A stretch of 64,000 nt of DNA from Fragilariopsis cylindrus CCMP1102 (lineage: Eukaryota; Bacillariophyta; Bacillariophyceae; Bacillariales; Bacillariaceae). The notes below the pieces were generated by a model. The model ran no database searches, was not told the DNA's origin, and worked only from the letters and a program-made list of their open reading frames with translations. A program made the position numbers and the translations under genes. This document shows positions 17,471 to 62,299 of this stretch, in pieces. Position 1 is the stretch's first letter, and each line of letters begins with the position of its first letter. The stretch is taken from the NCBI GenBank assembly GCA_900095095.1, contig FMBT01000308.1, forward strand, positions 248,001-312,000. The letters are read 5' to 3'.

Positions 17471-18433
17471 TCCTAGATTCATAATATCCTCTCGTGATGT
17501 TCAGAACGACATGTGATCATCTAAAAAGCGACCGAGAAGCGATTCAAACCGATTATATTTGAATTATGTATCGAATGTCACCGATTATTTTTGAATGTGT
17601 ATCGAAAGTCGCTTATAAAGAAACTGCTTCTAATCAAGATATCACAAATCCCGCCTCTACGCTACGCTACTCAATCAATCAATGGATAATAAATACCGCA
17701 GTAGCCATAAATGTTTTTCTTTTTTTTTCTTGTCTTAATTTACGTGCTAGTAGTAGTAGTAGTAGTAGCGCATCGAAATAAAACGATGCATAGACGACAT
17801 AGAAGCGTCTCTGCGAGCTAGTCCTGATAGAGTACAGTAGAAACAATTTACAAAATAGGAGATGCAACTCAATCAAAGAATGAAATGTACTGTAGTAGTA
17901 ATTTTTTGGACGAAAGCGGTCGAAGCAGCAAGCTTTCTCTCTTTCTCTCCGGTTGTTTACTGTAGACTATTTTTAATCGTGGAAGTCTGTCCTTCGTTGA
18001 AGGTTTCCAGAAAAAGCACGCTTCCATTCAATAATGTTCAGTCAAGCACATGATATAGAACTGAATGATGTTAAATGGAATTTCGTCGTGATTCGCCGTA
18101 TATCATATATTAGCACGGGGAGATTTTTTAAGATTCATGTGCTGAACGGAATAAACTTCCTAAAATCCGTCGTCTCATTTATTAATTCGACCTAAGTACT
18201 GTACGGTGCGGTAGATTATGAAAGCACTAAGGTCTCATGATTGTAGCACATGATTGATTCCTCATGATCCATGGACCCAGCATTCTAGCGCGAGAAAAAA
18301 TACCGCTGCATGGACGGTGGACAATAATTCACCAAGCAACCGAAAACAACCATTGTTGTCACAAAGATAATCAAATGAATGAACGAATGAACGAATGATT
18401 TGATTCTTACATACAGTAGGAGCGATATTAACA
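17471..18433. other. Intergenic; no gene seen
   Basis: About 960 bp between two same-strand trypsin-like genes. It contains a (TAG)n tract near 17750-17770 and imperfect direct repeats ('GTATCGAA' at 17567 and 17598). Small open frames here show no family features. Confidence 0.4.
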
Positions 18434-21400
18434 ATGGCGTCGTCGAAGTTGTGTCGATGGAGAAGGGCATTTGTCTTTTTGTTGGTGCTAGTTTCATTAG
18501 AAGGATTCCTATTTGTTTATTCCTCAGGAGAACAAGATGATAACTACAGCACATATCGTCAATTATCAGGCTCGTCGTCGTCGTCGTCGTCGCTAAGACA
18601 CCATCACAATAGAAGGAAAGCTACAAGTACAACATCATCATCAACAACCGCTGCAAGAACTCCTCGTATTGTTGGTGGGACCGATACGTCGAATGTTCCG
18701 TACTTTATTTTATGGGGTGGATGTGGTGCTACATTGATTCATAATGACATTGCCTTAAGTGCAGCACATTGTTCGGAACGTGATAATGCACACGTGGGAC
18801 CAAAAAATAGATCAGATACTTCCAATTGGACCCGTGTCGATAAAGTTCGGAAACATCCACAGTATAATTCAGAAAGTTACGATTATGACTTTGCAGTATT
18901 AAAATTAAAGGGTTGGTTCCAACAGGATACGGTCAAATTGAATGTTGATGAAGAATCACCCCAACCTGGTGAATCCTTACAGATATTAGGATTTGGTGGA
19001 CAATCACAAACACTGAAACAGGGACGTGTTGATTGTATCAGTCCATCGATTTGTGCCGAACAATGGTTACGAGCAGGATATTTCATTGATGAAGAGGCTG
19101 CTATCTGTGCAAAAGCTGAGGATGGTGTCGATGCGTGTACTGGTGATAGTGGTGGTCCATTATTACTGGAGGGTTCATCAGTACAGGTGGGCGTAATTTC
19201 GAGCGGGTCAGGATGCGATGGGCGCCTACCGACGGTATATTCTCGTGTTAGTGCTGGTCAAGATTGGATTACACAACAAATATGTGAATTATCAGATTTT
19301 CCACCAAAATTTTGCCGAAAATTCAATAGTGGACCGGGTCGAGATGAAACAAGAATACGAGTTGACGTCAATCTCGATGAATTTCCAGAAGATATCCGAT
19401 GGATGATAACAGAATCATATAGTGGCGAGACTGTAGCTACTAGTGGTGGGAACTTCGAGGTACCAAATAGTCTGGAGTCTAAATTTGTTGATCTACCTGA
19501 TGATAAAAATTACATTTTCACGATTGAGGATGTTGGTGGGTTTGGGGATGGTCTTGGAAATGATGGAAGGTACAAAGTTGTTACAGTGAACAACGATGGC
19601 AACGATGATAATACTTTAGTTTCGGGTGGAGGTAACCTTCAAGATTCTGAATCAACAACATTTTCAATTGGTAACGCACCGAATCCAACATTTGATCCAA
19701 CTCCACTACCTACACCCAATCCAGTAAATGAAGCTGCTGCTGCTGGGTTTCCATCCCTTAATAGACCGATTGTTACACAAAACAATAATGATCCGAACCA
19801 GATCAACCAATCAGCATTATACTCTACTCCAAACTGGATGGTTCCAATAATGAACCGTCCTGCTTTACTACCGACGATGAATCCAACTCAAAGTTTAGTG
19901 ATATCGACTACTACGAATACTCGCAATCCTAGTAAAAAGCCAACGAAACTACCCTCAACAAAAAGGCCAACTAAAAGACCGACTAAGACTAATAGTCCTA
20001 TGTTATCGACGTCTCAGCCTAGTAAAAAGCCAACGAAACTACCCTCAACAAAAAGGCCAACTAAAAGACCGACTAAGACTAATAGTCCTAGTGTTTCATC
20101 TCGACCTAGTGTGTCTGCTATACCATCGTATTTCCCAACCAATGATCCGTCTACCAAAAAAGAGACCGATGAGCCTACACTTAACTTATCATCAAAGCCA
20201 ACAAATAATAAGAAAACACCATCGCCGACAACAAAGCCAACAAATAATAAGAAAACACCATTGCCAACACCAGTTCCAACGCTGTTGCCAACAATATCAC
20301 CAACAAAAGTAGAATCAAGTGAACCAACTCGAAAACCAACGATAACACCAACTGACACACCTACTTCTTCTCCAACTAACGACCCAACAAGAAGACCTAC
20401 TTCATCTCCCACAAAGGAACCAACGGAGTCACCGACAAAAGCAACAACAGCTCTTCCTACAAAGAAACCAACCGAATCTCCTACAAAAGCAGCAACGGAT
20501 TCACCAACCGAGGGACCAACAATAGAACCGACGCCTGAACCAACTCCTGAACCAATTGAGGTACAAATATTGGTAAATGCAGGACTTGAAGGTTTTGTAT
20601 TTGACGATGACGATGATGGAAGGTTGCTTCATAAGATCGACGAAGATACTGTAACGAATGTCCCAACAACAGTAGAACCAAGTCCTGCGCCTTCTGAGAA
20701 TTTCGTTACACCGCAACCTACTACTTTCATTGCAACAGAAATACAGACTCCCGTTCCTACTACACCACAACCTACTCGATCTACATCTGCCCCCACCATA
20801 AGTCCAACTACATCAAGACCAAATACACAAAGACCATCTACATCTGGTCCCACGATTAGTCCAACAACAGTAGAACCTACTGTCAGTCAAACAACAGAAA
20901 GACCCAGCCCTGAACCGAGTCCTTCTGAGAATTTCGCTACACCGCAACCTACTATTTTCAGTGCAACAGAAATACAGACTCCCGCTCCTACTACACCACA
21001 ACCTACACGATCTACATCTGCCCCCACCATAAGTCCAACTACACCAAGACCCTCTACATCTACCCCCACGATTAGTCCAACAACGGTAGAACCTACTGTC
21101 AGTCAAACAACAAAAAGACCCAGCCCTGAACCGAGTTCCATGGATTCATTGCAACCAACTTCTGGACCAACAACAATAGTAAATGAAGAGACATCTAAAC
21201 CTATTGAAACCTTGACGCCAACATTTATTCCTACTAGTAGTAACACAGCTAAACCAAGTGATGAGCCTAAAATTTCCTATATGGCATTTGTGAGTGTGAA
21301 TATATCGAACGATCCAGAACAAGTAAGTTGGAGGATAATCGATGCAGTAACAAAAGAACAACTTTTTGGGTATTCTGCTGGTATGTACAATCAGAATATG

Positions 21401-21595
21401 ACTTATTCAAACATTTTCAACATTCAAACGGGTGAATGGCAATTACAGCTTTTTCGTGAATCATTAGCTGCAGATGTAACGGCTGAAATTGGTATCTTAA
21501 ACATAGTTACTGCAATGATCGATCCAGTTGGTAAGTTGAGCCTTGTACCGGGTACCTCTGCAACGACAGCGACTACTACAATTCAATTAGACTAA
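18434..21595 (+). CDS. Secreted trypsin-like serine protease with long Pro-Thr-Ser region and two beta-type modules
   Basis: 1,053 aa in one intact exon. A signal anchor ('AFVFLLVLVSLEGFLFVYSS') is followed by 'TPRIVGGTDT', the start of a trypsin fold. Catalytic residues are His112 ('LSAAHC'), Asp152 ('YDYDFAVLKL') and Ser239 ('[12 protein letters not shown]'), with specificity Asp233, so trypsin-like cleavage after Lys/Arg is expected. Next come a module of about 100 aa ('DEFPEDIRWMITESYSGE...YIFTIEDVGGFGDG'), about 550 residues of Pro/Thr/Ser repeats including near-identical units 'KKPTKLPSTKRPTKRPTKTN', and a second module ('VNISNDPEQVSWRIIDAV'). The linker resembles cell-wall or mucin-like proteins and is probably O-glycosylated. 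Unlike the neighbouring gene it has no introns in the protease region. Confidence 0.9.
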   Translation: MASSKLCRWRRAFVFLLVLVSLEGFLFVYSSGEQDDNYSTYRQLSGSSSSSSSLRHHHNRRKATSTTSSSTTAARTPRIVGGTDTSNVPYFILWGGCGATLIHNDIALSAAHCSERDNAHVGPKNRSDTSNWTRVDKVRKHPQYNSESYDYDFAVLKLKGWFQQDTVKLNVDEESPQPGESLQILGFGGQSQTLKQGRVDCISPSICAEQWLRAGYFIDEEAAICAKAEDGVDACTGDSGGPLLLEGSSVQVGVISSGSGCDGRLPTVYSRVSAGQDWITQQICELSDFPPKFCRKFNSGPGRDETRIRVDVNLDEFPEDIRWMITESYSGETVATSGGNFEVPNSLESKFVDLPDDKNYIFTIEDVGGFGDGLGNDGRYKVVTVNNDGNDDNTLVSGGGNLQDSESTTFSIGNAPNPTFDPTPLPTPNPVNEAAAAGFPSLNRPIVTQNNNDPNQINQSALYSTPNWMVPIMNRPALLPTMNPTQSLVISTTTNTRNPSKKPTKLPSTKRPTKRPTKTNSPMLSTSQPSKKPTKLPSTKRPTKRPTKTNSPSVSSRPSVSAIPSYFPTNDPSTKKETDEPTLNLSSKPTNNKKTPSPTTKPTNNKKTPLPTPVPTLLPTISPTKVESSEPTRKPTITPTDTPTSSPTNDPTRRPTSSPTKEPTESPTKATTALPTKKPTESPTKAATDSPTEGPTIEPTPEPTPEPIEVQILVNAGLEGFVFDDDDDGRLLHKIDEDTVTNVPTTVEPSPAPSENFVTPQPTTFIATEIQTPVPTTPQPTRSTSAPTISPTTSRPNTQRPSTSGPTISPTTVEPTVSQTTERPSPEPSPSENFATPQPTIFSATEIQTPAPTTPQPTRSTSAPTISPTTPRPSTSTPTISPTTVEPTVSQTTKRPSPEPSSMDSLQPTSGPTTIVNEETSKPIETLTPTFIPTSSNTAKPSDEPKISYMAFVSVNISNDPEQVSWRIIDAVTKEQLFGYSAGMYNQNMTYSNIFNIQTGEWQLQLFRESLAADVTAEIGILNIVTAMIDPVGKLSLVPGTSATTATTTIQLD

Positions 21596-30303: not shown

Positions 30304-30499
30304 CCTTTATCTGGTTCTTCGATCTTCGATACGTTTGCTCTCGATGCTTTGTTTGTGCTTTCGAGTTTGTAAGAGAAGCTTTCTTGTACTTTTATGTTAT
30401 TACTATTATTATCGATGATGCTTCATTCATCTTTAGTTTTGAGGTGACCAAAAAAGTTTACTATCATCATTGTAAATGGATCTATTATTGTGCGAGATA

Positions 30500-30507
30500 G
30501 TGAGTTT
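30500..30507. repeat. Left target-site duplication (GTGAGTTT)
   Basis: GTGAGTTT directly precedes the left terminal repeat and is repeated exactly at 43864-43871 directly after the right one. Eight bases is the duplication length made by hAT transposases. Confidence 0.95.
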
Positions 30508-30525
30508 TAGGGTTTGGAAACTTCA
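30508..30525 (+). repeat. Left terminal inverted repeat of the hAT element (18 bp)
   Basis: Exact inverse of 43846-43863; identity ends after TTCA, where the next base differs (A on the left, C on the right). Confidence 0.95.
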
Positions 30526-31166
30526 ATTTATCCACGTCTCGATAATTTCAAGTTTTTTGAATTTTAGAGAAACTTCACTAATTTCAAAAAAAAAATGGAA
30601 ATTTCGAATGAGCTGATAGTTTCAGTCAACCGCACCTCTCGTGAAACTTCGAAATGACTGAAATTTTCTAATTCCTAATTTAGAAGTTTCATGTATTTGA
30701 ATGTTTGTTTTTAGTGTAATTCTCTAAAAATAAGCTTAACACACCGCTTTTGTATGCCTCTGTCACTGTTTTAAGGTAACCTTCTCCTACGTTTCTTTCA
30801 CCTTCATCCTCTATTAGTCGATATTAAAAATGGAGACGCTTAGTGTTATTGCTTTATTTGTGCGATGGAGTGGATTCTTACTCCTTCATCGTATGCACTT
30901 ACTCCACGAATTATCACAATATGTCTCGATTTATCCTGGTGCATCGTACATCTTTACAAGCAATGGAGTGGATTCTTACTCCTTCATCGTATGCACTTAC
31001 TCCACGAATTATCATAATATGTCTCGTCTTATTCTGGTGCATGGTATATTTTTACATCCACTTTACGAATCATCACCATCACACCGCATTCCCTCATAAA
31101 ATCTAATTCCAATCAAAGAAATCTCATCAAACATTTCAACCAATTTAAATCTTCAAATAACTCATC
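30526..31166. repeat. Left sub-terminal region: GAAACTTC motifs and a 98-bp tandem duplication
   Basis: GAAACTTC occurs at 30569 and 30643 and inverted at 30683, in addition to the copy in the terminal repeat at 30517. Sub-terminal repeats of this kind are transposase-binding sites in known hAT elements. From 30865 a segment beginning ATGGAGTGGATTCTTACTCC is repeated at 30963 with few differences (period 98 bp). Open frames crossing it are repeat artefacts. The last 100 bp lead into the ORC1-like gene. Confidence 0.8.
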
Positions 31167-33023
31167 ATGAGTCACTTAAACGATACCACCTCCTCCGAAG
31201 TATTAGACGCAGCCCTTGGATTGGTTAACATGACTGCAACTGATTCTTATATTTCCAAATCCGTTACTCCCGATCATCATCACCGCTCATTGGCAGTGCG
31301 AGACGCAATTGCATCTAGTCCTATCATGGAAGTAGATAACTACTCTTCGATGGCTTCCCTTCCAGTGACCAAACCAAAACTCAACGCCTGTATCAAGCGA
31401 ATTGCATTCCTGGCAGTCCACGAGAAACTTACCTTACGTCGTAAATATCTATCTCGCTGTGACTATGACAAAATCACGCAAATGGTCAAGAGACAGTTTA
31501 ATATTCCACCTAATTGTACCATTAATTTGAAGAAAATTCAACGAGCCATGCTATTATTTGACAGCCAGCCATTGATCGTCGACAACAATTCTATTGAACC
31601 TCATCCACGACGACATCAATGTATTACCAAATTCACTCTTAATGATGCTGCTATGCTGTTGGAGTTACCGAATAAACAACAGCCATCTATTTCAGGTAAA
31701 GACGTAATGGAGACTCTGGTGCTATCACAGAAAGTATTGAAGCAACAAAACGATCATAACGAACTTATTCCAACACCGAACATTCAACAATCGTGCCTCG
31801 CACTCAACCATTTCTTTCGACACGTCTACGATTCTCAAGCTGAGGTTGGGAACTCTAATGGTGACCCGTCCGTCATCTATTGTTGTGGTTCGGCGGGTAC
31901 AGGAAAGACTACGACTGTTCGTCATATGGCCCACCTAGCGAGGGAACGAACAATCAAGAAAGACGACGCTGAATCTGATTCACTGTATTTTGTGAACTGT
32001 TCCACTCTCCCATTTGGTACAACAGCCATCAAAGCATACAAATATTTACTAAATCATTATGGAATCAATAAGTTACAATTCAGAGAGAGAGGCAGTTCCC
32101 GTTCATTAGATGGTTGTACAATCATCATCTTGGACGAAATAGATTTAATCGTTGGTCAGAAAGGTTTGGAAGGCATGGTGAAGGGATTGTTAGAGATTGC
32201 ATCGAAGAAGGAATCGTTGTTGGCTATTGTTGGAGTATCAACGTCGGTGTTCAACAAGAAGTCAGAAAAGTTGCTCCAGATGGGTATGGGTTCCAACAAA
32301 GTAGTATTCCCTACTTATAAAAAGGACGACTTGATGGATTTATTTCGATACACTGTTGGTTTTGATGCAATCAACGCCCAAACAGTTTCTTTTGTTGCAG
32401 CTAAAGTTTCTCATGCATCTGGAGATGCCCGTACTTTCTTCAATATAATGGATCGTACCATTGATGCAGCAATGCATCGCATCGAAGAAAACGATAAAGA
32501 ACTTTTATTTAGTCCATACAGGCCTAAAAAAAGTATACCACTTACCCGTATTCACGATGCAATGGAAGTCTTTATGAGTGACTCACCACAATTCAAGAAC
32601 AACATTTTATTGTTACCTGAATACCAACGTCAAGTTTTAATATTAGGGTGTTATGTTGAGAAGTATTTCGATGGTAAACCACTCACACTTAGTATATTTG
32701 CCACATTTGTTCGCCAAGCCCAATCAAGTGAATCAAGTGAGGAAATGTCGCTGGTCCAAATCAAAGATATCATCGAACATCTGGAAGACACAGGACTTGT
32801 TAAGGTAACAGTCGCTGAGAAGAAACAACGTAAACGTGGATCACAAAAGAAACTTGTGGGTCCATCTCTGGCTCTGACTCTGTCTGAATTTTCGCGTGCG
32901 ACGATTCGCTTTGATCATGCACTTGAAGAGGTGGAGTGTGCTATTGGGGAAATTGTTTCGGATAACCCTCATTACACCTCACTTGTTCATCGGTTTGAAG
33001 AGATAGTAGCACGTTATATGTAA
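31167..33023 (+). CDS. ORC1/CDC6-like AAA+ ATPase inside the transposon
   Basis: 618 aa, intact, no intron. An unrecognised N-terminal region of about 230 residues is followed by an AAA+ domain: Walker A 'GSAGTGKTT' (Lys247), Walker B 'IIILDEID' (Asp323-Glu324), a sensor-1-like 'LLAIVGVSTSV' and the sensor-2 helix 'SHASGDARTFFNIMDRTI'. The last 150 residues look like the winged-helix domain of ORC1/CDC6 ('LPEYQRQVLILGCYVEKYF', 'QIKDIIEHLEDTGLVKV'). ORC1/CDC6 proteins load the MCM helicase at replication origins. There is no BAH domain. All ATPase residues are present, so activity is likely. Its place between the element's ends marks it as transposon cargo and not the host's own copy (inference). 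Confidence 0.88.
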   Translation: MSHLNDTTSSEVLDAALGLVNMTATDSYISKSVTPDHHHRSLAVRDAIASSPIMEVDNYSSMASLPVTKPKLNACIKRIAFLAVHEKLTLRRKYLSRCDYDKITQMVKRQFNIPPNCTINLKKIQRAMLLFDSQPLIVDNNSIEPHPRRHQCITKFTLNDAAMLLELPNKQQPSISGKDVMETLVLSQKVLKQQNDHNELIPTPNIQQSCLALNHFFRHVYDSQAEVGNSNGDPSVIYCCGSAGTGKTTTVRHMAHLARERTIKKDDAESDSLYFVNCSTLPFGTTAIKAYKYLLNHYGINKLQFRERGSSRSLDGCTIIILDEIDLIVGQKGLEGMVKGLLEIASKKESLLAIVGVSTSVFNKKSEKLLQMGMGSNKVVFPTYKKDDLMDLFRYTVGFDAINAQTVSFVAAKVSHASGDARTFFNIMDRTIDAAMHRIEENDKELLFSPYRPKKSIPLTRIHDAMEVFMSDSPQFKNNILLLPEYQRQVLILGCYVEKYFDGKPLTLSIFATFVRQAQSSESSEEMSLVQIKDIIEHLEDTGLVKVTVAEKKQRKRGSQKKLVGPSLALTLSEFSRATIRFDHALEEVECAIGEIVSDNPHYTSLVHRFEEIVARYM

Positions 33024-33636
33024 CGAACTCGCGTTTATTTTTCTAATATATAGTCGTGATTGGAGATTTAAATGTATTGTAATTGTTATTAATTTATAAT
33101 TTATTTATACAAGTTACAGAAAACTTCTACTGAATATAGAGTTAGGATTACTATACGTACTATACGTATCACGCTGTATGGTCTTCTATATATTTTGGAA
33201 AGGGATGTATGCTTTTATTACAGTTACTTTATCACCTTTTTTGGGTTACCACCTCTTTATTTTAATTGAAAAGTGAACCAATTATTTTGGTGTGCGCCAA
33301 CTGTTGGATTTATCATGAATTTTCAAAAAAGCTCTAAGTACCTAGTTGCTTTTTGCTGTCGCGAACACAAATAACTTATGAAAATTTATACAACGCACAA
33401 GGTGATACTTTGAAAAATTAGTGATTTTAGATAAAGGTTTGAAGGTATGTTTGTATTTTTAATATATATTTTATATTTGATTGGAGCGGATATTTCTCCT
33501 ACATTCTTAATTTAATTTTGTTACATACGTTGTGGTATATATTATTCTATAACAACCGAACTATAACGATTGTACTTCACCATAACAACGTTCAACTTTA
33601 GTTTTTGATGTATCTGTTCTCGAATAAGAATAAAGT
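33024..33636. other. Convergent spacer inside the element
   Basis: AT-rich spacer of 613 bp between the ORC1-like gene and the gene converging on it. No repeat or further coding region is supported. Confidence 0.4.
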
Positions 33637-34191
33637 TTATTCTGGTGTTGACTCATCACTAGGCAAACCATGATACTCCAATGCGCCAATGTAAGGCGGA
33701 GCAAAGGAAGAAACTTCTTCAATTGCGTCGAGTGTATCATTGTGAGGTGGAGTAAACAAAGAAACTTCTTCAACTACGTCAGATGGTACTTCTACGTTCC
33801 CAGGCCAAACATACGTTGGCAGATCAACAAATCCTGCTACATGATCGGCTGAGTCTCTTACGTCCTGTGGAACCATTTCTGTACCCCACTCTTCGACGAA
33901 ACGGTTGACCATTGGTATCCACTCATATTCCAGCTTAGACGCATACACAACTGTACTGTTTCTTGTTCCACTTCGTTCTTGATTCAATCCATCGATTGTA
34001 TTCTTGATATCTTCGAGTTGCTTGACATAACGGACACATTCTTCTATATTCTCAAAGAATGAAACAACACCAAACCATCGTACATTACCAGGAACAAAAA
34101 CAGTCCTAACGTACAGATGTTTGAAACGGTTTCTGTTGAGACGGTTGTCTGGGCCAGTGTATTTACCAACAAAGAAGAGTCGATTGATCAT
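33637..34191 (-). CDS. Unknown transposon-encoded protein, 184 aa
   Basis: Intact frame from ATG at 34191. No family recognised. It starts 'MINRLFFVGKYTGPDNRL' and has a mixed alpha/beta look to about residue 130. The acidic C-terminal tail holds an internal repeat: 'VVEEVSLFTPPHNDTLD' followed by 'AIEEVSSFAPPYIGALE'. It lies entirely within the hAT element, convergent with the ORC1-like gene, so it is probably element cargo. Confidence 0.6.
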   Translation of the reverse strand: MINRLFFVGKYTGPDNRLNRNRFKHLYVRTVFVPGNVRWFGVVSFFENIEECVRYVKQLEDIKNTIDGLNQERSGTRNSTVVYASKLEYEWIPMVNRFVEEWGTEMVPQDVRDSADHVAGFVDLPTYVWPGNVEVPSDVVEEVSLFTPPHNDTLDAIEEVSSFAPPYIGALEYHGLPSDESTPE

Positions 34192-34681
34192 GATGAAGTG
34201 TTTGTATTAGTATTTATGGTTTGGTTGTGTGCCGAGGTTCAATGATCACAACTTAGTTTAAAGATAATTATTTAATTTTATAGTTACACTTTCAATTCCG
34301 CGATAATTATCCATGAGGTGCAACGCTATGGAACTTTACTTGTTTTGTCTTAGTATACAAAAACGTTCATTCCATTGACATGAAGAAAGTGGTGCGTTTG
34401 TCTTAAATAGTTATAATAGACTCAACGACCATTTTTATTATGTTAAAAGGGACCCTGCACCTCTACTTACCGTCGGTTTTTTCTCACACAATGCTTTGGA
34501 GAAAACGGTGCGATTGTCGTAATCGCTGTTGCTATAGACTCAACGGTCGAAATAATCTTTTAGTTATTATTCCTCAACAATATATCAATATGAATTTCAA
34601 ACAGTTAATATTGTCATGGAAATAACAAATTACAAATTGCACGTTGCAAATTAGTAATTGAACAGTCAGTTTTTACAAAAA
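34192..34681. promoter_or_regulatory. Divergent spacer inside the element
   Basis: Between two divergent element genes and therefore the likely place of both promoters. The sentence-like pair 'GGTGCGTTTGTCTTAAATAG' near 34392 and 'GGTGCGATTGTCGTAATCGC' near 34508 looks like a diverged direct repeat about 117 bp apart. Confidence 0.4.
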
Positions 34682-35242
34682 ATGTCGCAATCTAGTGAAA
34701 CAAAAACCGTCTTAGACTGCCCCTCCCTAGATGATATATCATGTGGTTGGGAAACGCCAAGGAATGAAACAATACAGTTGTGTCAACCAAGTCAATTTTC
34801 CGACCAGTACAATAGCAATTCTAGCCTCAAGATAGGAACATCCGATACAACATCTACGGTATGTGGAGGATTTTCGATGAACATTAATATACCTCCCAAA
34901 AAACTTTTCCAAACTTTGCCATCTCCATCACTCGACCACACTCAACCCGCAGATCCTCAATCGATTCTTACCAAGCAACCATTACCATCACCATCACGCA
35001 CCTACACACAACCAAATGATTCTCAATCAAATCTTTCACAGCAATCCCTTTCATCAACTCAAGATTCGAACGAAGCCATATTCCCGTCCCCACCTCCTAT
35101 TGCATTCCTTTCGCCGACTGTAGGTCGTTTTACTGGTTTCTTTGGTCCTCACTGGAGCAACCTACAGAGGGATTTGAAGAGACAGGAAAAAGAGGATTTG
35201 AAGAGACAAAAAAGAGAGGATTCGAAGAGACACAAAAAATGA
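34682..35242 (+). CDS. Unknown transposon-encoded Ser/Pro-rich protein with basic tail, 186 aa
   Basis: ATG at 34682 (an upstream in-frame extension has no ATG). The protein is rich in Ser, Gln and Pro, with repeated blocks 'LPSPSLDHTQPADPQS' and 'LPSPSRTYTQPNDSQS'. It ends in a basic tandem repeat 'DLKRQEKEDLKRQKREDSKR'. It is probably disordered; the tail could bind nucleic acid or act as a nuclear signal (inference). No family recognised. Confidence 0.55.
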   Translation: MSQSSETKTVLDCPSLDDISCGWETPRNETIQLCQPSQFSDQYNSNSSLKIGTSDTTSTVCGGFSMNINIPPKKLFQTLPSPSLDHTQPADPQSILTKQPLPSPSRTYTQPNDSQSNLSQQSLSSTQDSNEAIFPSPPPIAFLSPTVGRFTGFFGPHWSNLQRDLKRQEKEDLKRQKREDSKRHKK

Positions 35243-35440
35243 TCTTCGTTCCTTTAGGAATCGAAGCAGCACCACTCCTTTCGCCGATTGTATATGCTTG
35301 TACTTCTTCGTATAGCTACTTACGGCTGGATGTCAATAGACAAAACAATGAACTACGGAGTTATGTCCTATTATTTAAGGAAACAATTTATCTACTGTAT
35401 TATATTCATTTGGTTATCATATTTATTTACTATTTATAAT

Positions 35441-35480
35441 TCACTATCAATTATTTTACTTCACTATCAATTATTTTACT
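35441..35480. repeat. Perfect 20-bp tandem duplication
   Basis: TCACTATCAATTATTTTACT occurs twice in direct succession, just before the 3' ends of two convergent element genes. Confidence 0.9.
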
Positions 35481-35538
35481 AACCACTTATACTGGATAAG
35501 TCGTGTGATTCTGTCTACATACATGTTATGTTCACTAC

Positions 35539-36342
35539 CTAGTAAACAATATGTCCGCCATGTAACACCTTTCGTAGGTGACATAGATGATGCATCTCAA
35601 CAAATTTACCTTCAGGAAAATTACGTTTGATATCAGTCAACGCCACACATGCTTCTCGATATGTCTTTTTACCACCTAGTGCTTTCATCTCCAAAACCTC
35701 CTTCAAATAAACTGTTAGGTGTTCTGGAACAGCCATTACTTGATTGTTAGTAACCATTCTGGTAATGAAATCAGGACTGTAAAAATGGGATCGGACCAAT
35801 TCTGGTAGACCATTGACCAAATTCCACACAAGAAGGAAAGTTGGACACATCTTTTCGTCACCTTCGGTATGTCGGATCAGGTTCTCAGGATAGTCAGCCT
35901 CAGCGTGGTACGTAAAGAGAGGCCTATCCCATGAAATCATAGGACATACTGAATCAAATTCTGAATCAATCCGATGATACAGGTTGGTCCCATCACCAAC
36001 TAATTTATCTTTCAATTCATAAAGCGCCGCGTATTCAACTTTATTTAACCTAGTTGAATTCATAAACGATTGACAGACACCTTCGTCTGCAATCGGAACT
36101 GGATACGCTTTTCCTGCCTTAACCAGACCTTGTATCATCTGAGAATTTTCATCTCTAACGGGAACAACTGCGATTTCTCCAAGTGTGTCGGGAGCGAGAC
36201 AGTAACGTGGTAATAAATTTCCATGTACGTCCATGCGCTGACCAGCGAATGGACGTCTTGGTGGTGGTTGACTGAAATTAAGATGGTTGTTCTCGTCGGC
36301 GATCATACAGTTGATCCCGTCTTCCTGGTGATGCACCTTCAT
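35539..36342 (-). CDS. Unknown transposon-encoded protein, 267 aa
   Basis: Intact frame from ATG at 36342. No family recognised. Features: Pro-rich N-terminal patch ('SQPPPRRPFAGQRMDVHG'), a globular middle with several aromatic residues, and a C-terminal His/Cys cluster 'MHHLCHLRKVLHGGH' that could bind metal. It is the third gene in the element without a recognised family; codon use looks like that of the transposase gene. Its promoter would face the transposase promoter across 36343-37319. Confidence 0.6.
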   Translation of the reverse strand: MKVHHQEDGINCMIADENNHLNFSQPPPRRPFAGQRMDVHGNLLPRYCLAPDTLGEIAVVPVRDENSQMIQGLVKAGKAYPVPIADEGVCQSFMNSTRLNKVEYAALYELKDKLVGDGTNLYHRIDSEFDSVCPMISWDRPLFTYHAEADYPENLIRHTEGDEKMCPTFLLVWNLVNGLPELVRSHFYSPDFITRMVTNNQVMAVPEHLTVYLKEVLEMKALGGKKTYREACVALTDIKRNFPEGKFVEMHHLCHLRKVLHGGHIVY

Positions 36343-37319
36343 GTTATGGTTAGTGTAGCTTGATTAAAGTTCGTAGTGAAGATATGGTTGTGTCGACCTT
36401 TCTAATTTCTTCTCGTTTTAATTTGTGTGACCAAATAGTAATTGCAAGGTTTTTTGCGATTTCGATAACTAGCAACGTCGAAAAAAATGTACAAGAGTAA
36501 GCCTACGTTCATCTTAGTGCTATTATTTGTTGCTGGTATCTCCCACCGCTGGTGCATCTCCGGACGACAATGATGATACTTGATAATGTTTTTGTCACTC
36601 CATTTCACAGTAAGTACGTGAGTATATCCAATTATAGTATGATGTGTGAGTTAAATCTATCATTCTATATGTTATAAGGATTATTCAACTCACCCACGGG
36701 AGAGTTGTAGCAAATAATTTCGGAATTGAATCATTTTTTAACAAACGATAAGAGGTGCGTTGTACTTAATTTATGTATTAGCGTGAGTTGCAAAGATATA
36801 CATTTTTCTCCTTCACTCTCTTCCGTTGAGTGATGTAAATGACAAAAGCGGAGAATGTTCTTCGAAGGTAGTTACATAATACTAAAAATAATAAAAACCG
36901 AAAACCAATTGCTTGTTGACCGTTAGATCTAGTGACTCCGCTTACATATTATAAGCATATATATTTAATATAGCCCAAAGTTTCTCCGCGTCGGGTGATA
37001 CTACTCATAGTGTTTGAGAATTTAATCACCTCACTCTTCGTAATAGTTAATGAGCAAACACTCCTAGTACAGAATTTTCAATGGTGGTGGAATGGATGGA
37101 GTACACCTAGAAAGGTGATATATGGAGTAGTTATCTCGCACCGTTTACAATGAGTAACTAAATACAATCGATAGATCTCCTGCGCTAGGCAAATCTTCGT
37201 CTAGCTTTCATTCAATTTTGAATTGCAATGGAAATTCACATAAATTGGAATTTAGTTATACATAAACAGTTAACAACATCTCGTCTTAAATTAGTACCAA
37301 TTCGGAAAATTACTTACAT
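36343..37319. promoter_or_regulatory. Divergent spacer upstream of the transposase
   Basis: 977 bp between two divergent element genes. A 68-codon minus-strand frame at 36402-36608 shows no family features and is not called. The promoters of the transposase and of the 267-aa gene should lie here. Confidence 0.45.
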
Positions 37320-39671
37320 ATGAGTTCTCAATCATCTACCGACGTGTCCGCATTAGGGGCTAGTCAATCCATTGAATCGGATAGTTCTTCGTCTGGTGAT
37401 GGATATACAAACACAAGTATGCCTCGAAAAGCAACTAAGAAGAAAAATGAGGAAGTACGTCAACATTTCACGTACGTACTAGATGAATCAAGTGGAAGAA
37501 CTGCTGCCATGTGCAAACATTGCAATGAAATTGTGGTTAGAGCAAAGGTCGTCAATATTACACGGCTATCGGGTCACATCACCGATAAATGTGAAAGAGT
37601 AAACGATTCGTTGAAGCGTCGGTGTTCCCAAAGTAGTCAAGAGGCCAAGCGTCGTAAAAAGGACTCTTCCCAAATTGTCTTAGGTTTCGGTGGAACGATT
37701 TCCAATGAGCCAAGTGGTGCTGCTATAGCCAGGTCTGCAATAACAAATCTGAAACGAGCAACAACTTCTGCACGCCGTGGACCAAAGATTCAATCCTACA
37801 TGTCTAGTCATTATCATATAATGACTCAAGAAAGATTCGACGACTTTATGATTCGTGAGGTTGAGCTTCGATTGGCACGTTTTGATCCTATGAATTATTT
37901 TTTCGATCCTCTCGTAAGAAATAACTATGTCCAAACACATGGAAAGAGTATCTTGAAGTGGTATCCTGGTACACAAGATACTTTGTTCACTAGGTATGTT
38001 TTCCCAATTGATAGGAAAATAATGGAAAAAATCACCGCTGAAGTTGAAAGCATGCCTGGCTGTGCATCTTTGGAAGTCGATGGAGTCACCTGCAATCGTC
38101 GTAGTCATTTGGTTTACACAATATCGAAAGGTGACATTTCACTATTTTTGAAAACCAGTCAACTTGGTGACAGAGTTCACGAAACGGAGGCAGAAGCAGA
38201 TGACATTGTCGAAACAATTGAGACCACTGAAACAAAATACAAAACAAGTATCACCAATATGGCAGTCGACAATGCGGGTGTCCCAGCACTTTGTCTTGGT
38301 TTGGAAAGATTCAAAGAAAAGTATCCACATCATGCACCGATAACAATTACCCGTGACCCAGGTCACTGTCTTGATCTATTGTCAAAGGATTGTGTAGACC
38401 TACAGCTGTTTAAAAATTTAATCACAGACATTGAAAAACTTACATCGGTGCTGACAAACGATAAGATTCGTGGAATGATGGACAAGTTGTACAGCACTGG
38501 ATTAGTACCTACAGCCTTGGGTAAATTGAAGATGTACGAGCCGACTCGTATCGGTAAAATTGCTCTGTATCTGGAATCCCTTCTCAAGTTAGAAAATTTT
38601 GTGACATCACTTCAGAACTTGAAACCATACAAACGAATCTTCGATGGTCGAACTGTTGCTACCAAGAAAAGTTGGGACGAGGCACTCAAGCCGGCTACGA
38701 ATCCAAACTGGTGGCGCCAAATTAAGTTAGCGTTTCGATGGTTCAATGCCATAAACATTTGTCAAAATGTCACTAGTAGAAACAATTTTCCACAGAGTGC
38801 TTACTTGCCACTTGTGGTGTCATTGAAAAATGAGTTTGATTTTTTAGAATGCGGTTTTGAAGGAAAAATGACTGATGCTGGTTTTGATGTCGAGTTGCAG
38901 AAGGATTTCTGCAAATGTCTGAAAAAACGATTCAACATGGATGGTAAAAAACCCGAGGGTAGATGTGTCGGACTACTATCTGAACATCAGATTTGGGCGT
39001 TCATGTGCGACCCGTTCCGAAGACGGTTACCGTGTCACATTATTATACAACGTACCCGGGGATCACAACTGACAGAGATGCTAACGTTCTTTTCAAATAA
39101 TGACAACAACCAAATGGCCGATTTACGTAGTGGCTTTAATGATTTTACCACGAATATGGGCAGCTGGAAGGATTTCCGCGACGACAAGCCAAAACTAGAG
39201 ACTTTTTTTTCAAACGAGGACGAAAAGGTTGCTATAGAAGAGCAGCAAAAACTTCGAATCAAATCAGTAGTTGATTGGGTTGACGATACTGATGGTGTCA
39301 GTGGTAGACTAGCGTGGTTATCAGTTGCTCCGAATGACCTATTTAAGAACACAATAGCATTCCCGTTGATGTCGGCAAGAACATCCGGATCGATGTCGGT
39401 GGAAAGAGTTGCTAAACCTTTGAAGAATAATATCTTCACTGTGAATCGCAATCGATTAGGTTTCCATAAGGCATCAGTTCTATTGCGTGTTGGCATAAAT
39501 TTACGTTACTGCTACAACGCTAATATGAAAATTAGAGGTGTTGTTGACAACACCTCCACCGCACTACAAGAAAAGTTATTGGATTTTCATGCAGCGAGAG
39601 AAGATGTCCATCGTATGGATGTAAAGGAGGCGTCAGAATCTAACTCAATCACAGAAAAAAAGGTGGAATAG
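37320..39671 (+). CDS. hAT-family transposase with N-terminal BED-type zinc finger
   Basis: 783 aa, intact, no intron. A BED-like finger lies at about residues 40-95 ('AAMCKHCNEIVVRAK', then 'ITRLSGHITDKCE'). The catalytic core has 'ASLEVDGVT' (candidate first Asp, residue 254) and 'NMAVDNAG' (second Asp, about 317) with 'DPGHCLDLLSKD', the counterpart of the hAT 'C..H.lnL.lkD' block. The C-terminal hAT dimerisation region reads 'TSGSMSVERVAKPLKNN...NRNRLGFHKASVLLRV', containing the conserved Glu of 'SxxxER'. The enzyme cuts and rejoins the element ends and makes 8-bp duplications, which matches the ends seen here. All candidate catalytic residues are present, so it may be active. Confidence 0.92.
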   Translation: MSSQSSTDVSALGASQSIESDSSSSGDGYTNTSMPRKATKKKNEEVRQHFTYVLDESSGRTAAMCKHCNEIVVRAKVVNITRLSGHITDKCERVNDSLKRRCSQSSQEAKRRKKDSSQIVLGFGGTISNEPSGAAIARSAITNLKRATTSARRGPKIQSYMSSHYHIMTQERFDDFMIREVELRLARFDPMNYFFDPLVRNNYVQTHGKSILKWYPGTQDTLFTRYVFPIDRKIMEKITAEVESMPGCASLEVDGVTCNRRSHLVYTISKGDISLFLKTSQLGDRVHETEAEADDIVETIETTETKYKTSITNMAVDNAGVPALCLGLERFKEKYPHHAPITITRDPGHCLDLLSKDCVDLQLFKNLITDIEKLTSVLTNDKIRGMMDKLYSTGLVPTALGKLKMYEPTRIGKIALYLESLLKLENFVTSLQNLKPYKRIFDGRTVATKKSWDEALKPATNPNWWRQIKLAFRWFNAINICQNVTSRNNFPQSAYLPLVVSLKNEFDFLECGFEGKMTDAGFDVELQKDFCKCLKKRFNMDGKKPEGRCVGLLSEHQIWAFMCDPFRRRLPCHIIIQRTRGSQLTEMLTFFSNNDNNQMADLRSGFNDFTTNMGSWKDFRDDKPKLETFFSNEDEKVAIEEQQKLRIKSVVDWVDDTDGVSGRLAWLSVAPNDLFKNTIAFPLMSARTSGSMSVERVAKPLKNNIFTVNRNRLGFHKASVLLRVGINLRYCYNANMKIRGVVDNTSTALQEKLLDFHAAREDVHRMDVKEASESNSITEKKVE

Positions 39672-40582
39672 ATCCAAACACATAGTCATGGTTTGATGGA
39701 TATGTTATTATTGTTACATGAAATCTATCTTTCGGAAATTGGTATGGAAGAATGTAGGATGTTTTGACGGTGTTGGTCACCATATTTATTGAAGTATGTG
39801 TCACCCGTACGTCACATGTTCTAAGTGTACGATTATTCAAGTAAAAATTATATATTAGTAGTGCGCTTCACCTTATATTGGTAACTATAGAACTATAATT
39901 CTGTCTACTTTTTTAGTAATATAATCTAAATTCGTACTACATATAGGAAGGTATTATTTGAGTCTATATTATGTGTCTATGGTTGCTAGAAAATTAGATG
40001 TGAATGTAGATCTATACCGAACTATGGTGAATTTCTAGAAACCATAGATAATTCCATATATTCCATATATTCCCTAAAATCAGTACGTTTATCGTGACAG
40101 AAGAGAAAGATAATATTTGGTACAAATTTGAGACATATTTGGGACAACAGAGATAGGTGTTGTCCCAAATTTACAAATCCAAGAAGTATGAGACTAATTG
40201 TAATTTGAATAGTAGTTGCTGTTTTAGAAAACGTATCTGAATAAAAACTGAATTGGTCAAAAGTGTAAATAAACTTGCTTTTTATATTATTTTACGTGTT
40301 TACAGCGATTTCGCTAAGTAAATGTCTTAAAAATAGCATTAAGTATCGGATTTGGGACAAAAGCTAATACTAAAGACCAGTTTTAGACAAATTTGAGACA
40401 CATTTGGGACAAAACATATTGTAGGTGTCGTGCGCGTGATAATCACCACGTGTTTTTCTCTGGTAATTGTGAAATTGGGATTGGGTATAGATAGTTACTG
40501 AACTTAGTGCACAAGGTGAAAGGGATCTCACAGTATATACGCACTCGTTCAGATTTGTGTCGACTTATCAGGGTCACCGAAA
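39672..40582. repeat. Convergent spacer with TTTGGGACAA repeats and a perfect hairpin
   Basis: Between the 3' ends of the transposase and protease genes. AAATTTGAGACA(T/C)ATTTGGGACAA occurs at 40124 and 40389, and TTTGGGACAA also at 40351. At 40137-40170 ATTTGGGACAAC and its exact complement form a 12-bp stem with a 10-base loop. No coding region is supported. Confidence 0.75.
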
Positions 40583-43060
40583 TTAGTTATCAACATCTGA
40601 ATTAGGATTACGAGTTACAGGTGGGCCATAGATGTATTCGTGTAATTCGGCAGGGTCGTGTGTGACAAAACAGTTCCTCATGTCCTCGTCAATCATAGCT
40701 TGGCCTATGTTTTTCAACTTGGGACCAAGAGTTACAGAGGATTCGCCTGGAGGAACCAAAAATCCGAAACATGGTCCCTCTGCTCGTGCATATATTTTGT
40801 TCTTTGCTAGATGAGGTCGTTTGACGACCGAATCTTCAATCATATAAAAGTGATTCGAAGATGGATGAGCATCAAGACAATCTTCATTAACAAATGTAGT
40901 GAGTGTGTGCATCTTTTTCATCGTCTTTGAGATACTCAAAGCTTTTGGTCGAACTTTTTCATCCTTTAAATGAACAGGGGTTGATGGCGGTTGACTAACT
41001 TTACGCTTTTCTCGTTTTTTTTTGGAATTGCCTCAATTTTTACAACAATGTTACTCTCTCCTATACCTTTCGTCTTTCGACGCTTACCAACAGGAAGTTG
41101 GTTTACCTTTCCTTTAGCGTTTTTAGTACTAATCGACAACTTCTTGCCGTTGCTAAGGTTCCTATCGTCGCTTGAATTGTCAACTGAGTTGTTGTCCGAA
41201 TCATTATCCATTTCAAAGTTATCTCCTCCTTGATACTCGTCGTCGATGTCTTCGGCCGCCGCTTTTCTTTTCTTAGCGTTACGAGATGAAGAAGCAGCAG
41301 GAGCGGTCTGCGACCTACTGCGGAGCTTCATCGATGAAGCTTCGGCTGGTGGCTCCTTTAAGGTGACCGAGGCCTTTTTAACCTGTTCATCCTTTTTAAG
41401 CTGTTCATCCACCTTCTTACGCCGTTCAACCTCCTTCTTACAAATTTCGACCATCTTCTTACGCTGTTCATCCACCTTCTTACGCTGTTCTTCCTTTTTA
41501 CGTTGATCGTCCTTTTTACGTTGATCGTCCTTCTTACGCTGGTCGTCGCTCACTTTCTTGGCTTCAACTCGGGCGTGGTAATTTCTGACCATGAGCATCA
41601 GAGCCGCCAAATCCATTTGAAACTGAAGTACCTCGTCGGAAGTAATCGAACGTAACGTCTCTGAAAAAGCGAAAAAACCTTCAGTTGAATCATAGATCGT
41701 AGGATATTCCTTCTTAACGACAACCTTCGTATACAACCGGCTGATTGCCATCATCGATCTGTACCCGCAACTGTATCCGTCGTTTTGAATGGCACCTATT
41801 ATTACGACGACACAAATAAGTGTTAGAGTCAAAGCATAATTATAAAATAACGTAACAAGCTGATACAAATGGTAACTTACATTGTGGCCTATGGATAGGC
41901 AAGTTAAGATGGGTGAAATGACCATCTTCTTCAAACAATACGTTCAAGAGGTCCCTAACTTTCACACCTAAACCCCAGGTGACATGATTAGGTCGATGAA
42001 TACCCTCTTCTGGTAATGAATCAAAATGAAGAATACACTTCGTTCGATCACTAGGATTAGGTGTCCCACTTCCATCCTTGACATTTAAGTTCATTACAGC
42101 TACAACCGAGTAATGATTGTCTTCAATAATTGGCAATAAAATGCAACCTACCGCAAGTAAGCTTGGTCGAGGCAGTGATGGAGTAGATTTTGTTTGGTGG
42201 TAGAACATCTTATCCATATATTGCAACGCATTATGCTTTTTCTGAAGTTCTGTTACATTAGTCTTGTTGTTATATTCATTGATGGACTGAAACAAACTAC
42301 ATGGCATGATATAAATCTTCTTAGAAAATTTGTCACGAACCATTCTGAAGATACTGTGGACGTCAAACAAATCATCTGTTGCGTACTTCTTTGCATTATC
42401 TTCCATAGCGATGTCGTAGGAATTATGAAGGCGTTGAAGACCGAGGCAAGTAAGACCCACACGATTTGGAACGGCAACCTCCAAATCTTGGTCACCAGAT
42501 GTGAGTAGTTTTACCTGGTTGAGATCAGATGAATCCATCGAGACCACCATACGCAAGTAATGATTGACCCCATCAGCAACTACATACTGCGTTGGAAATG
42601 TGGTGATAAACATATCACCATCAGCCTCGGGGGGAACCAAGGAACTCAAGGTAGGCGTATCAGATAAAGTGACGTGCACCGGTGATTTTCTCGGGAGTCG
42701 TGGAGGTCCTTCGTGTGTAGCTAGTACTAAATGTCGCAGTGTTTGCACATCACTTCCGGAAAACTTCATAAGATCTGCAGGTACGACGTCAGTTACCTCT
42801 GGATCATCATCAGCTTCGAGAACATCATCAAGACCGGCAAGAATGTCTGGACATGAGGAATCGTTTAGAACAAAAGTACCGGTCTTCACTTTCGAAGATG
42901 GGATGACAGAACCCGCTTCTTGTTTAACGACGTGAGCAATCTTGCTGTTCTTAGGACACAGATTTGGTTCCTTTCTAACGGAAACAACCGATTTTGTTGT
43001 GGAACGGGTGGACTTGGAACGACAACCAGTACTACTTGACTTGTTGGTAGGATTCGCCAT
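40583..43060 (-). CDS. C48-type (Ulp1/SENP-like) cysteine protease inside the transposon
   Basis: ATG at 43060; exon 1 43060-41881, an 85-bp GT-AG intron, exon 2 from 41795. The catalytic set fits family C48: His316 in 'EDNHYSVVAVMNL', Asp347 in 'CILHFDSLPEEGIHR', Gln397 and Cys403 in 'QNDGYSCGYRS'. A Lys/Asp/Gln repeat ('KKDDQRKKDDQRKK') and an acidic/basic nuclear-looking region follow. At an A9 run (41015-41023) the first frame leaves coding sequence and stops at 40966; with one more A it continues as 'KREKRKVSQPPSTPV' to 40583. C48 enzymes remove SUMO-like proteins; related genes are found as passengers in MULE and CACTA transposons. Confidence 0.8.
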
Positions 43061-43845
43061 GGTCGATGATGACAACCAAAACGATATCTGAATAATAAAT
43101 GTTGTAAATTGTATTAAAGTATTTTGTTTATGAAGTTAACATAAAGTAAAATTATGCGAATAGACTGAGGTTCGAATTTTTTTAGTTGAGCTAAAATAAA
43201 AGTATAAGGTCAAACTAACACTGTATAAAACCACGATAAGAAGGGTAAAACCATCGTACTTGGTGATGAAACTAGAAGCGATTATCGTAACAGGTTTATT
43301 TCATTCATCAAAATGTGGAAAAGTCCACGGTATAGTAGTGTCACATGATTAATTAGAGCGAGATTGTTAAATGACAATCGTGGGACTGTTACTACACATG
43401 AAAGCTGTACATATTATCAGTAACAAATGTACCTCGTTCACCAATAAATGGTGGGGTTGTACGTGCATGTATCGTGATGTGTCAGTTTCTTTTTCTGTTG
43501 AGGATCAAAATGTACATGTTATCGGTAACTAATGAACCTCGTTCACCAATAACTGGTGAGGATGTACATGCATGTAGCGTGATGTGTCACTTTCTATTCC
43601 TGTTGAGGATCAAAATGTATTGATTTTATGGGTGTGTCCACGGTAGACAGTACGACTTGTAATGTGCGTTGTAATAATTGTCTGTTTTAATATGAATCAC
43701 GAGGAAATCGAGTCCCGCAGGTAGATCTGGAAACTTGAAGAAAAAATTTCAATTAGTGAATGAAAAAAATTGTATCACGAGTTACATTCCTATTCGAAAG
43801 TTCAGGAAACTTCACGTTGAAAGTTTCACCTACTTAAGCTAGTAG
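43061..43845. repeat. Right sub-terminal region with a 105-bp tandem duplication
   Basis: A segment starting TGTACATATTATCAGTAAC at 43406 recurs at 43511 (TGTACATGTTATCGGTAAC), period 105 bp, about 85% alike by eye. Sub-terminal motifs: GAAACTTC at 43806 and GAAACTTG near 43730. No gene is supported; the protease promoter should lie at its left. Confidence 0.75.
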
Positions 43846-43863
43846 TGAAGTTTCCAAACCCTA
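43846..43863 (-). repeat. Right terminal inverted repeat of the hAT element (18 bp)
   Basis: TGAAGTTTCCAAACCCTA, the exact complement of 30508-30525. Confidence 0.95.
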
Positions 43864-43871
43864 GTGAGTTT
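43864..43871. repeat. Right target-site duplication (GTGAGTTT)
   Basis: Exact copy of 30500-30507, directly after the right terminal repeat. Confidence 0.95.
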
Positions 43872-61500: not shown

Positions 61501-62299
61501 CAAGGACCAACCTCACACTATTATACAGCAAATTCACCAAAAATCTTCAATGGGAACATGCAACTACAAACAGTTTATTATTCTCATTCTTTTTAGTTTT
61601 ATCACAAAACCAATTGAAAACCAAATTTGCCTGTACACTACATTGTACACATTACATATAAGTGTTCTATCAAGGCATACATTGTTCTACCGGGGTGATA
61701 TTAGAATCTCTCACTTAATGGAGATGAAATAAAGATTGAATATCGTCTGCTATACATATCTATATAGAAATTGGCTAGATTAATAAATATATATTTATAT
61801 ATATTACATATTAAATCAATGATTAAAATTAAATTAAGCCTACAGTTTTAAAAGTAATGCTGGTTTTGCTACTGAAATAGTGCTGGTACACTTGGGTTAC
61901 TGGTAAAATTGTGATCCCACTGGCAACAATTGCGCTCAAAAAAGGCATTGAGGGTTTAAGAATTTAATGGTTTAACGTCTATCTACTTTGTATTATAATT
62001 GTTAATTTATGCATTATTTTCCATCATTATGATCTATGCTTATGACCTATGTTTTTTTGAACTTCTGAGTTCTACAGTAGCGAACATTATACGAGACATG
62101 AGTGTTGTCTCTATTATTTATATCATTTCGATTTGTTTCTTGTTTCTCCCCGAGTTAAAAGTCAACGAATATAATACCGTAGGATAAGAGCCGGTACGGA
62201 TATCGAATCGTTTTTAAGAGCCTACATTGAGTAGTCTGCTTTATTCGTATTGAATACTGTACGTAACATTCGTTCGTTCCCACGAATAAGCTGAAACAT
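58597..62299. other. Long stretch without a recognised gene
   Basis: 3.7 kb, AT-rich. Two adjacent 12-bp palindromes sit at 59103-59114 (GTTGCATGCAAC) and 59122-59133 (GTTGCGCGCAAC). Around 61050-61470 one frame reads Ser/Asn/Gln/Lys-rich sequence interrupted only by TAG codons, possibly a decayed gene or retroelement gag-like remnant; no family can be named. Other open frames here look accidental. The 58,600-58,900 part should contain the promoter of the pseudoprotease gene. Confidence 0.45.

Follow-up and report, generated by a model that had tools for sequence, protein, structure and literature searches.

The window analysed here is a 64,000-bp stretch of the Fragilariopsis cylindrus genome (C164:248001-312000; C-numbers are contig labels of the single 67.9-Mb assembly studied, which has 818 contigs). 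The host is algal, as its genome gives 104 matches to the chlorophyll-binding family PF00504. One of these proteins was compared with the PDB; the best chains bear the name LHCI (entry 9vfj), and chains named XLH, VCPI, FCPI, CAC and ACPII come next, several being of fucoxanthin/chlorophyll-c type. Along with Ser/Thr/Pro-repeat proteins encoded in the window, this points to a diatom. The window contains a 13,356-bp mobile element, measured between the outer edges of its inverted ends (30508-43863). The element is probably a self-contained hAT-type cut-and-paste transposon with an accessory module acting on an internal cis site. The module would be formed by an Orc1/Cdc6-like ATPase, a Ulp1-like protease and an array of phased repeats, and would serve the element itself.

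The element is bounded by 18-bp terminal inverted repeats starting with TAGGG, TAGGGTTTGGAAACTTCA at 30508-30525 on the plus strand and its exact reverse complement (18 of 18 bp) at 43846-43863 on the minus strand. They are flanked by two exact, unstranded copies of the 8-bp target-site duplication GTGAGTTT (30500-30507 and 43864-43871). Such ends and such a duplication had been claimed in an earlier interpretation of the same stretch (the sequence-only reading), and both are indeed exact. The regions adjoining the ends, at 30508-30681 (plus strand) and 43689-43863 (minus strand), contain GAAACTT repeats: the outermost 250 bp on the two sides together hold eight GAAACTT/AAGTTTC words, where 0.10 would be expected.

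With at most three mismatches, the terminal repeat is found at two places in the window, both being ends of the element; shuffled windows contain 0.09 such places on average, and one of 100 reached two. With at most two mismatches, it is found at 33 places genome-wide, compared with 11 for a reversed control pattern; 12 of the 33 are exact. A scan of 31 loci for facing ends (two places with two mismatches, at C88 and C608:21955, were outside the scan) identified facing pairs at five loci, all with a perfect 8-bp duplication and all with different duplicated sequences. At one of these loci an extra outer end forms a sixth pair, whose flanks differ at five of eight bases. Given the genome-wide excess over the control and the five facing pairs with perfect, differing duplications, the 18-bp repeats are true transposon ends. 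Chance ends are ruled out by the shuffles, the reversed control and the facing pairs with duplications.

Five short elements, 663-744 bp long, have the same ends (C184, C185, C513, C635 and C659); the left-end repeat recurs in all five with at most two changes. A genome search with one of these derivatives returned not just the ends, but also a stretch inside the large element. All five match the large element in three blocks: the left end (155-174 bp, 82-90% identity), positions 40115-40414 (69-79%) and the right end (172-176 bp, 90-93%). Locally shuffled windows, 50 in all, gave no match at 1e-10. Matches to the element account for 585 of the 668 bases of C513 and, in C635, for 503 of 744. 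Since each derivative matches both ends and the same inner stretch, the interior is tied to the ends. Four derivatives share one layout, and in C635 the interior is inverted relative to its ends; we do not propose that the five arose independently. Where aligned end to end, the derivatives are 80-95% identical to each other. In C513, C184 and C659 the matched interior is exactly 40115-40411, with an internal gap in C513 and C659.

The latter interval is an iteron-like phased-repeat array with no strand of its own, in which triplets of the motif ATTTGRGACA surround an A+T-rich core (73% A+T compared with 61% in the window). Thus the matched interior of the three derivatives has the exact outer edges of the triplets. 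The triplet members start at 40115, 40126, 40137 and at 40380, 40391, 40402, with 11-bp phasing in each triplet; the member at 40115 has one departure from the motif, that at 40380 has two, and the other four have none. There are also a single copy at 40350 (plus strand) and two inverted copies, one at 40161 and a weak one, with two departures, at 40323. The looser motif TTTNRGACA occurs eight times in 341 bp against 0.045 in shuffles (shuffle maximum 1). Elsewhere it was counted twice in the remaining part of the element, six times in the remaining window and 11 times in 66.7 kb taken from other loci. All six matches of the stricter motif ATTT[GC][AG]GACA in the window are within the array. 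As single-stranded DNA the array folds better than its shuffles (z -4.08, 0 of 100), and two inverted repeats in the same stretch form a 13-bp hairpin.

Conservation is higher in the repeats than around them. The GACA cores are retained at 28 of 28 positions in four derivatives and at 16 of 16 aligned positions in C635 (128 of 128 in total). Repeat positions are 84-94% identical to the derivatives, compared with 64-66% in the non-repeat remainder, and equally conserved random position sets of the same size were obtained 3, 10, 5 and 11 times in 20,000 for the four derivatives and 152 times in 20,000 for C635; as the derivatives share ancestry, these figures are nearly equivalent to a single evolutionary comparison rather than to five. 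ORF (open reading frame) E and F/F3 converge on the array, their 3' ends being at 39671 and 40583, respectively. Thus the array is not the promoter of E or F, and this candidate function is ruled out.

An allele without the insert was found on contig C285. The joined host flanks of the element match C285:28006-28545 over their full length at 93% identity; the identity of C285 with the left flank is 99.6% (1,741 bp) and with the right flank 97.5% (1,815 bp), and the element is absent. Judging from this allele, the insertion is recent and polymorphic in the genome, with one haplotype occupied. Near-identical contigs such as C162 and C109 (100% over 1.6 kb; C43, 97.5%) indicate that haplotypes are kept apart in the assembly.

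The sequence-only reading had proposed to look for an empty site with a single copy of the duplication. C285 provides the site lacking the element, but it is not letter-perfect, as it has 12 additional bases to the left of TGAGTTT and carries TTGAGTTT where the element has GTGAGTTT. Similar sequences at C212 and C164:226584 have the longer form too (compared by eye in reverse complement). Since they share it, the longer form looks older, and the occupied haplotype had probably lost the 12 bp already when the element inserted. The 12 bases form a small palindrome; however, an excision footprint at C285 is ruled out, as C212 and C164:226584 carry the longer form. The insertion site is inside a small repeat (window 30345-30507, C212:10161-10360, C164:226584-226783). 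This repeat holds the palindrome GATAGCGTARCGCTAT, which is partly missing from the occupied haplotype.

The closest relative of the large element is a 121-bp 5' end, 99% identical to its first 121 bp, at C311:29813-29933 and C701:31411-31531. It is flanked by AGAGAGAG; at C311 it breaks off abruptly and is followed by host-like ORFs in the 10 kb examined. C701 is a probable allele of the C311 insertion, and this 5' end is a recent yet broken sister insertion. Together with the C285 allele it supports the earlier suggestion of recent movement. That the element is a complete mobile unit, as also suggested earlier, is supported by its ends and duplication, by the C285 allele and by the short derivatives that end in the same way. 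A group of host genes that happens to lie between unrelated ends is ruled out by the single duplication, the C285 allele and the derivatives matching both the ends and the interior.

ORF E (37320-39671, plus strand) encodes a candidate hAT-like transposase of 783 aa. Its coding score is z 7.7, with seven host ORFs of the window as the training set for codon usage; all eight ORF segments of the element score as coding (z 3.3-8.3, compared with 3.8-9.5 for the training ORFs). The protein has a putative N-terminal BED-like finger (zf-BED, PF02892, E-value 0.0037, 17.7 bits, below the cut-off of 20.6) and a DUF659 match (E-value 0.13, below the cut-off). The motifs D254, D317, DPGH at 346-349 (D346 and H349), E695 and RNRL at 710, with catalytic residues assigned by eye, follow each other in an order that fits a hAT transposase; the C/DxxH signature is described as common to hAT and some other superfamilies (PMC10045372). 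An alignment with the host hAT domain L068 scored 46, equalled by one of 200 shuffles, and that with a partial host hAT domain, L069, scored 33, equalled by 40 of 200. The hAT description applies to the ends, the duplications and the subterminal repeats, which are hAT hallmarks in the consulted parts of PMC3260210 and PMC4763223. The protein is termed hAT-like only, because its profile scores are below the cut-offs.

ORF A (31167-33023, plus strand, 618 aa) encodes an Orc1/Cdc6-like AAA+ ATPase. Residues 231-559 match TIGR02928 (E-value 1.4e-18, 67 bits; curated cut-off 181.3), and ORC1/Cdc6 chains are found among the PDB sequences, the best with an E-value of 1.9e-6 and others weaker. The expected motifs occur in order, namely Walker A GSAGTGKT at 241, Walker B ILDEID at 321 and a sensor-2-like SGDAR at 418. 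By profile, chain and motif matches, the product of ORF A is an Orc1/Cdc6-type ATPase. As to a C-terminal winged helix, the TIGR02928 match reaches model position 360 of 366, and PF09079 is not among the family matches.

The closest relative of A among the compared host ORFs is an Orc1/Cdc6-like gene at C164:215106-216456 (L011, L012). It is 29% identical to A (101 and 87 bits; a typical Orc1-like fragment on C293 has 31 bits) and has at least one intron, and its second exon weakly matches PF09079 (E-value 0.0062). A and this paralogue share an unusual SSNK/GSNK stretch at what we take, by eye, to be the usual place of the Orc1 arginine finger. On the contig that carries the element, the paralogue lies about 62 kb upstream of it, beside a PDX2-like gene (named by eye). 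The ORF upstream of the paralogue matched no Pfam family.

Gene F (40966-43060, minus strand, predicted splicing) encodes a predicted 669-aa Ulp1/C48-like cysteine protease with a Lys/Arg-rich tail. Exon 1 (43060-41881) is followed by a predicted 85-bp intron (41880-41796) and by exon 2, starting at 41795. The stretches NHYSV..., HFDSL and QNDGYSCGY, compared by eye, presumably represent the C48-type catalytic motifs with His, Asp, Gln/Asn and Cys, and the product is a probable Ulp1-type protease.

The proteins were compared with the genome in six-frame searches at an E-value of 1e-3, at which strongly decayed copies would be missed. The products of E, D (see below) and F exon 1 match the element alone, and that of A matches the element and its 29%-identical host paralogue. 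The sequence-only reading had considered that these might be host genes present also without the ends. For E, D and F exon 1 no such genes were found, and A has the paralogue only.

The proposed mechanism is as follows. The product of ORF E would bind the inverted ends and the GAAACTT subterminal repeats, excise the whole unit and reinsert it with 8-bp staggered cuts; the short elements would be internal-deletion derivatives mobilised in trans. The ATPase or another protein of the element would bind the array in cis, leading to replication of the element or to assembly of a transposition complex. The protease would process or de-SUMOylate proteins of the element or licensing proteins. The SUMO protease Ulp2 is reported, in the consulted part of PMC6891891, to promote initiation of replication in yeast; a common function of A and F would be in keeping with this, but it proves nothing here.

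Several observations weigh against this interpretation. Firstly, no second full-length copy was found in the genome. The sequence-only reading had named the lack of another copy with the same boundaries as a refutation; the lack holds for full-length copies, whereas short derivatives and single ends do exist. Secondly, the five derivatives probably descend from one founder, and retention of the array thus represents few independent events. The right triplet is absent from the C635 alignment, so the array match is not full length in all derivatives. Of 18 single ends, one (C254) has three array-type repeats, one has two unphased matches and 16 have none. Thirdly, the protein assignments are uneven. 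The frame of ORF E is open over 783 aa, as expected for the intact hAT transposase claimed earlier, but the hAT assignment is weaker than claimed, as no hAT profile matches over its cut-off. PF05699 gave no match up to an E-value of 1 with the whole protein or up to 10 with three C-terminal pieces (weak matches are mostly removed by the HMMER filters). Nor is ORF E among the four places listed by a PF05699 search of the whole genome. A comparison of ORF E with PDB sequences yielded nothing up to an E-value of 10, and the structure predictions have mean pLDDT (predicted local distance difference test) values of 34.0 and 31.5, too low to use. The best family of the N-terminal 479 residues of spliced F is PF02902 at an E-value of 0.0042 and 17.4 bits, under the cut-off of 20.7, and the F protein has no PDB match up to an E-value of 10.

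One possibility is that the element is a hAT of the usual kind, carrying passenger genes that were taken up from hosts and have no role in it, in the style of ToxhAT or Pack-MULEs, and that the array is the survivor of one founding deletion. Cargo-bearing hATs and gene-capturing elements with terminal inverted repeats are indeed known from the consulted parts of PMC6737239 and PMC6431247, ORF A has its host paralogue, and the end-to-end similarity of the short derivatives makes them look related by descent. However, A, D, E and F have open frames with the codon usage of coding sequence and no close copy elsewhere in the genome, and thus are not recent copies of host genes of this genome. Moreover, in three of the five derivatives the retained interior begins at the outer edge of the left triplet, and the repeats are more conserved than the sequence around them. 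The passenger explanation is somewhat unlikely, though one of the main alternatives.

The other main alternative, likewise somewhat unlikely, is that the array is not an origin but enhances transposition or is bound by the transposase or a regulator, and that A acts like IstB, TnsC or MuB, the AAA+ helpers of transposases in bacteria. Phage Mu has an internal activator with which the array can be compared. Conserved repeats in the gap between convergent genes fit any cis-acting site, and a dedicated AAA+ partner is known for IS21 (PMC11208146, in part). On the other hand, the array motif is unlike the GAAACTT end repeats, so the transposase is not its obvious ligand, and no eukaryotic precedent was found among the open-access PMC papers listed by one search.

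The origin is the bolder alternative, and it is rather doubtful. The element would carry its own replication unit, comprising an Orc1/Cdc6-type initiator and a matching origin, formed by the iteron triplets and the A+T-rich core at 40115-40411. This unit would license extra self-replication of the element, in place or excised, so that copies are gained beyond gap repair, and the derivatives would keep what is needed in cis, the two ends and the origin. The features in question are anatomical, namely phased repeats, an A+T-rich core and an initiator-like gene carried by the element itself.

It is improbable that ORF E encodes the transposase of some other superfamily, for instance P, that makes 8-bp duplications and has the C/DxxH signature. 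P elements do make 8-bp duplications, and ORF E has no hAT profile match over the cut-off. Nevertheless, apart from 8-bp duplications, the element has subterminal repeats, a putative BED-like finger and an ER..RNRL C-terminus, and its TAGGG ends are as in Ac (C/TAGGGATGAAA; PMC3260210, in part). A Teratorn-like virus or plasmid that took up a hAT transposase is most improbable: an initiator-like gene, phased repeats and a Ulp1-like protease, which Polintons and related viruses encode as well (PMC10175614, in part), would suit it, but no capsid, polymerase or packaging gene was recognised among the scanned ORFs (eight, then five), and no relatives of E, A or D were found in viral contigs (one scan each, which detects close relatives only), nor of A in phages. 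Relatives of E were not found in prokaryote genome contigs either.

The element resembles several known systems in part. The claim that hAT elements normally have a few kb and one gene needs a caveat, since the 14-kb ToxhAT is a precedent (PMC6737239). ToxhAT of wheat-pathogenic fungi likewise has about 14 kb between its terminal inverted repeats, a hAT-like transposase and several other ORFs; as described in the part of the report consulted, it differs by its 74-bp ends, by flanks in which no duplication was found and by a nested transposon. The present element has another set of genes; its ends are 18 bp long, its duplication is perfect, and an insert-free allele exists. Maize Ac/Ds shares with it the TAGGG-type ends, the 8-bp duplications, short repeats within about 200 bp of the ends and internal-deletion derivatives of an autonomous element (PMC3260210, in part). 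However, Ac has 4.6 kb and one transposase transcript, whereas here there are 13.4 kb and further genes, and the derivatives keep an internal array.

A Ulp1-type domain is likewise found within cut-and-paste transposons in CACTA and MULE elements with ULP1; these belong to other superfamilies, and no Orc1/Cdc6 gene is mentioned in the consulted part of the source (PMC2528002). The 16-20-kb En/Spm elements of the red alga Chondrus crispus are also enlarged, with 4-5 ORFs in an alga, but are of another superfamily (PMC6431247, in part). IS21 encodes a transposase and the AAA+ ATPase IstB from one element (PMC11208146, in part). IS21 is bacterial, and the ATPase described here matches Orc1/Cdc6 models. 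The same pairing of a transposase and an AAA+ ATPase occurs in Tn7 (TnsC) and Mu (MuB), again bacterial. Among the open-access PMC papers listed, we found none with a hAT element that carries an Orc1/Cdc6 gene or has an array of iterons inside it; subscription papers, Repbase and other eukaryote genomes lie outside this scope.

Eukaryotic hATs are usually seen as a transposase between two ends, with gains in copy number only through the timing of host replication and gap repair. If the accessory module is real, it would connect transposition with the licensing of origins, or would make the element a eukaryotic analogue of AAA+-assisted bacterial transposons. Derivatives with or without parts of the array can be made, so that self-driven replication of a cut-and-paste transposon becomes directly testable. 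The analysis also provides, from an alga, a hAT-like element for which the ends, a recent insertion and the insert-free allele are known.

The remaining ORFs of the element have no assigned family. ORF B (33637-34191, minus strand, 184 aa, coding z 4.3) has no convincing family match. ORF C (34658-35242, plus strand, at most 194 aa, z 3.3) is Ser/Pro/Gln-rich with a Lys/Arg-rich C-terminus and has no family match, and ORF D (35539-36342, minus strand, 267 aa, z 4.6) is present at one genomic place. The earlier count of at least five genes besides the transposase is thus fair, two having recognisable domains and three being recognised by ORF length and codon usage alone. An open frame downstream of F, F3 (40583-41032, minus strand, 149 aa, z 3.9), is either a further exon or follows a frame break near the A-run at about 41015. 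The frame of F shifts at 40966-41032 near this run of nine A, which may point to an additional intron, to a break in the frame or to a mistake in the assembly.

Just inside each element end there is one tandem duplication of about 100 bp: 97-98 bp with 92% identity at 30862-31056 on the left and 105 bp with 89% identity at 43406-43615 on the right, both on the plus strand. The whole element has no Rfam match at gathering scores.

The single ends elsewhere in the genome are mostly 3' ends. Lone 3' ends of about 70-150 bp with no partner within 1.5 kb account for 13 of the 18 examined (for example, C278, C307, C306, C557/C72, C70 and C411), and the other five are lone 5' ends. The neighbourhoods were examined within about 1.5 kb, except at C311, C254, C610, C627 and C139. 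Four ends at C610, C627 and C139 have no partner inside the 2.0-2.6 kb examined. At C254 the 5' end is followed by three array-type repeats and then by host-like ORFs (6 kb examined). On both sides of the element, at window positions 15859-21595 and 53578-63004, there are ORFs in which trypsin-like serine-protease segments adjoin long Ser/Thr/Pro repeats, as seen by eye.

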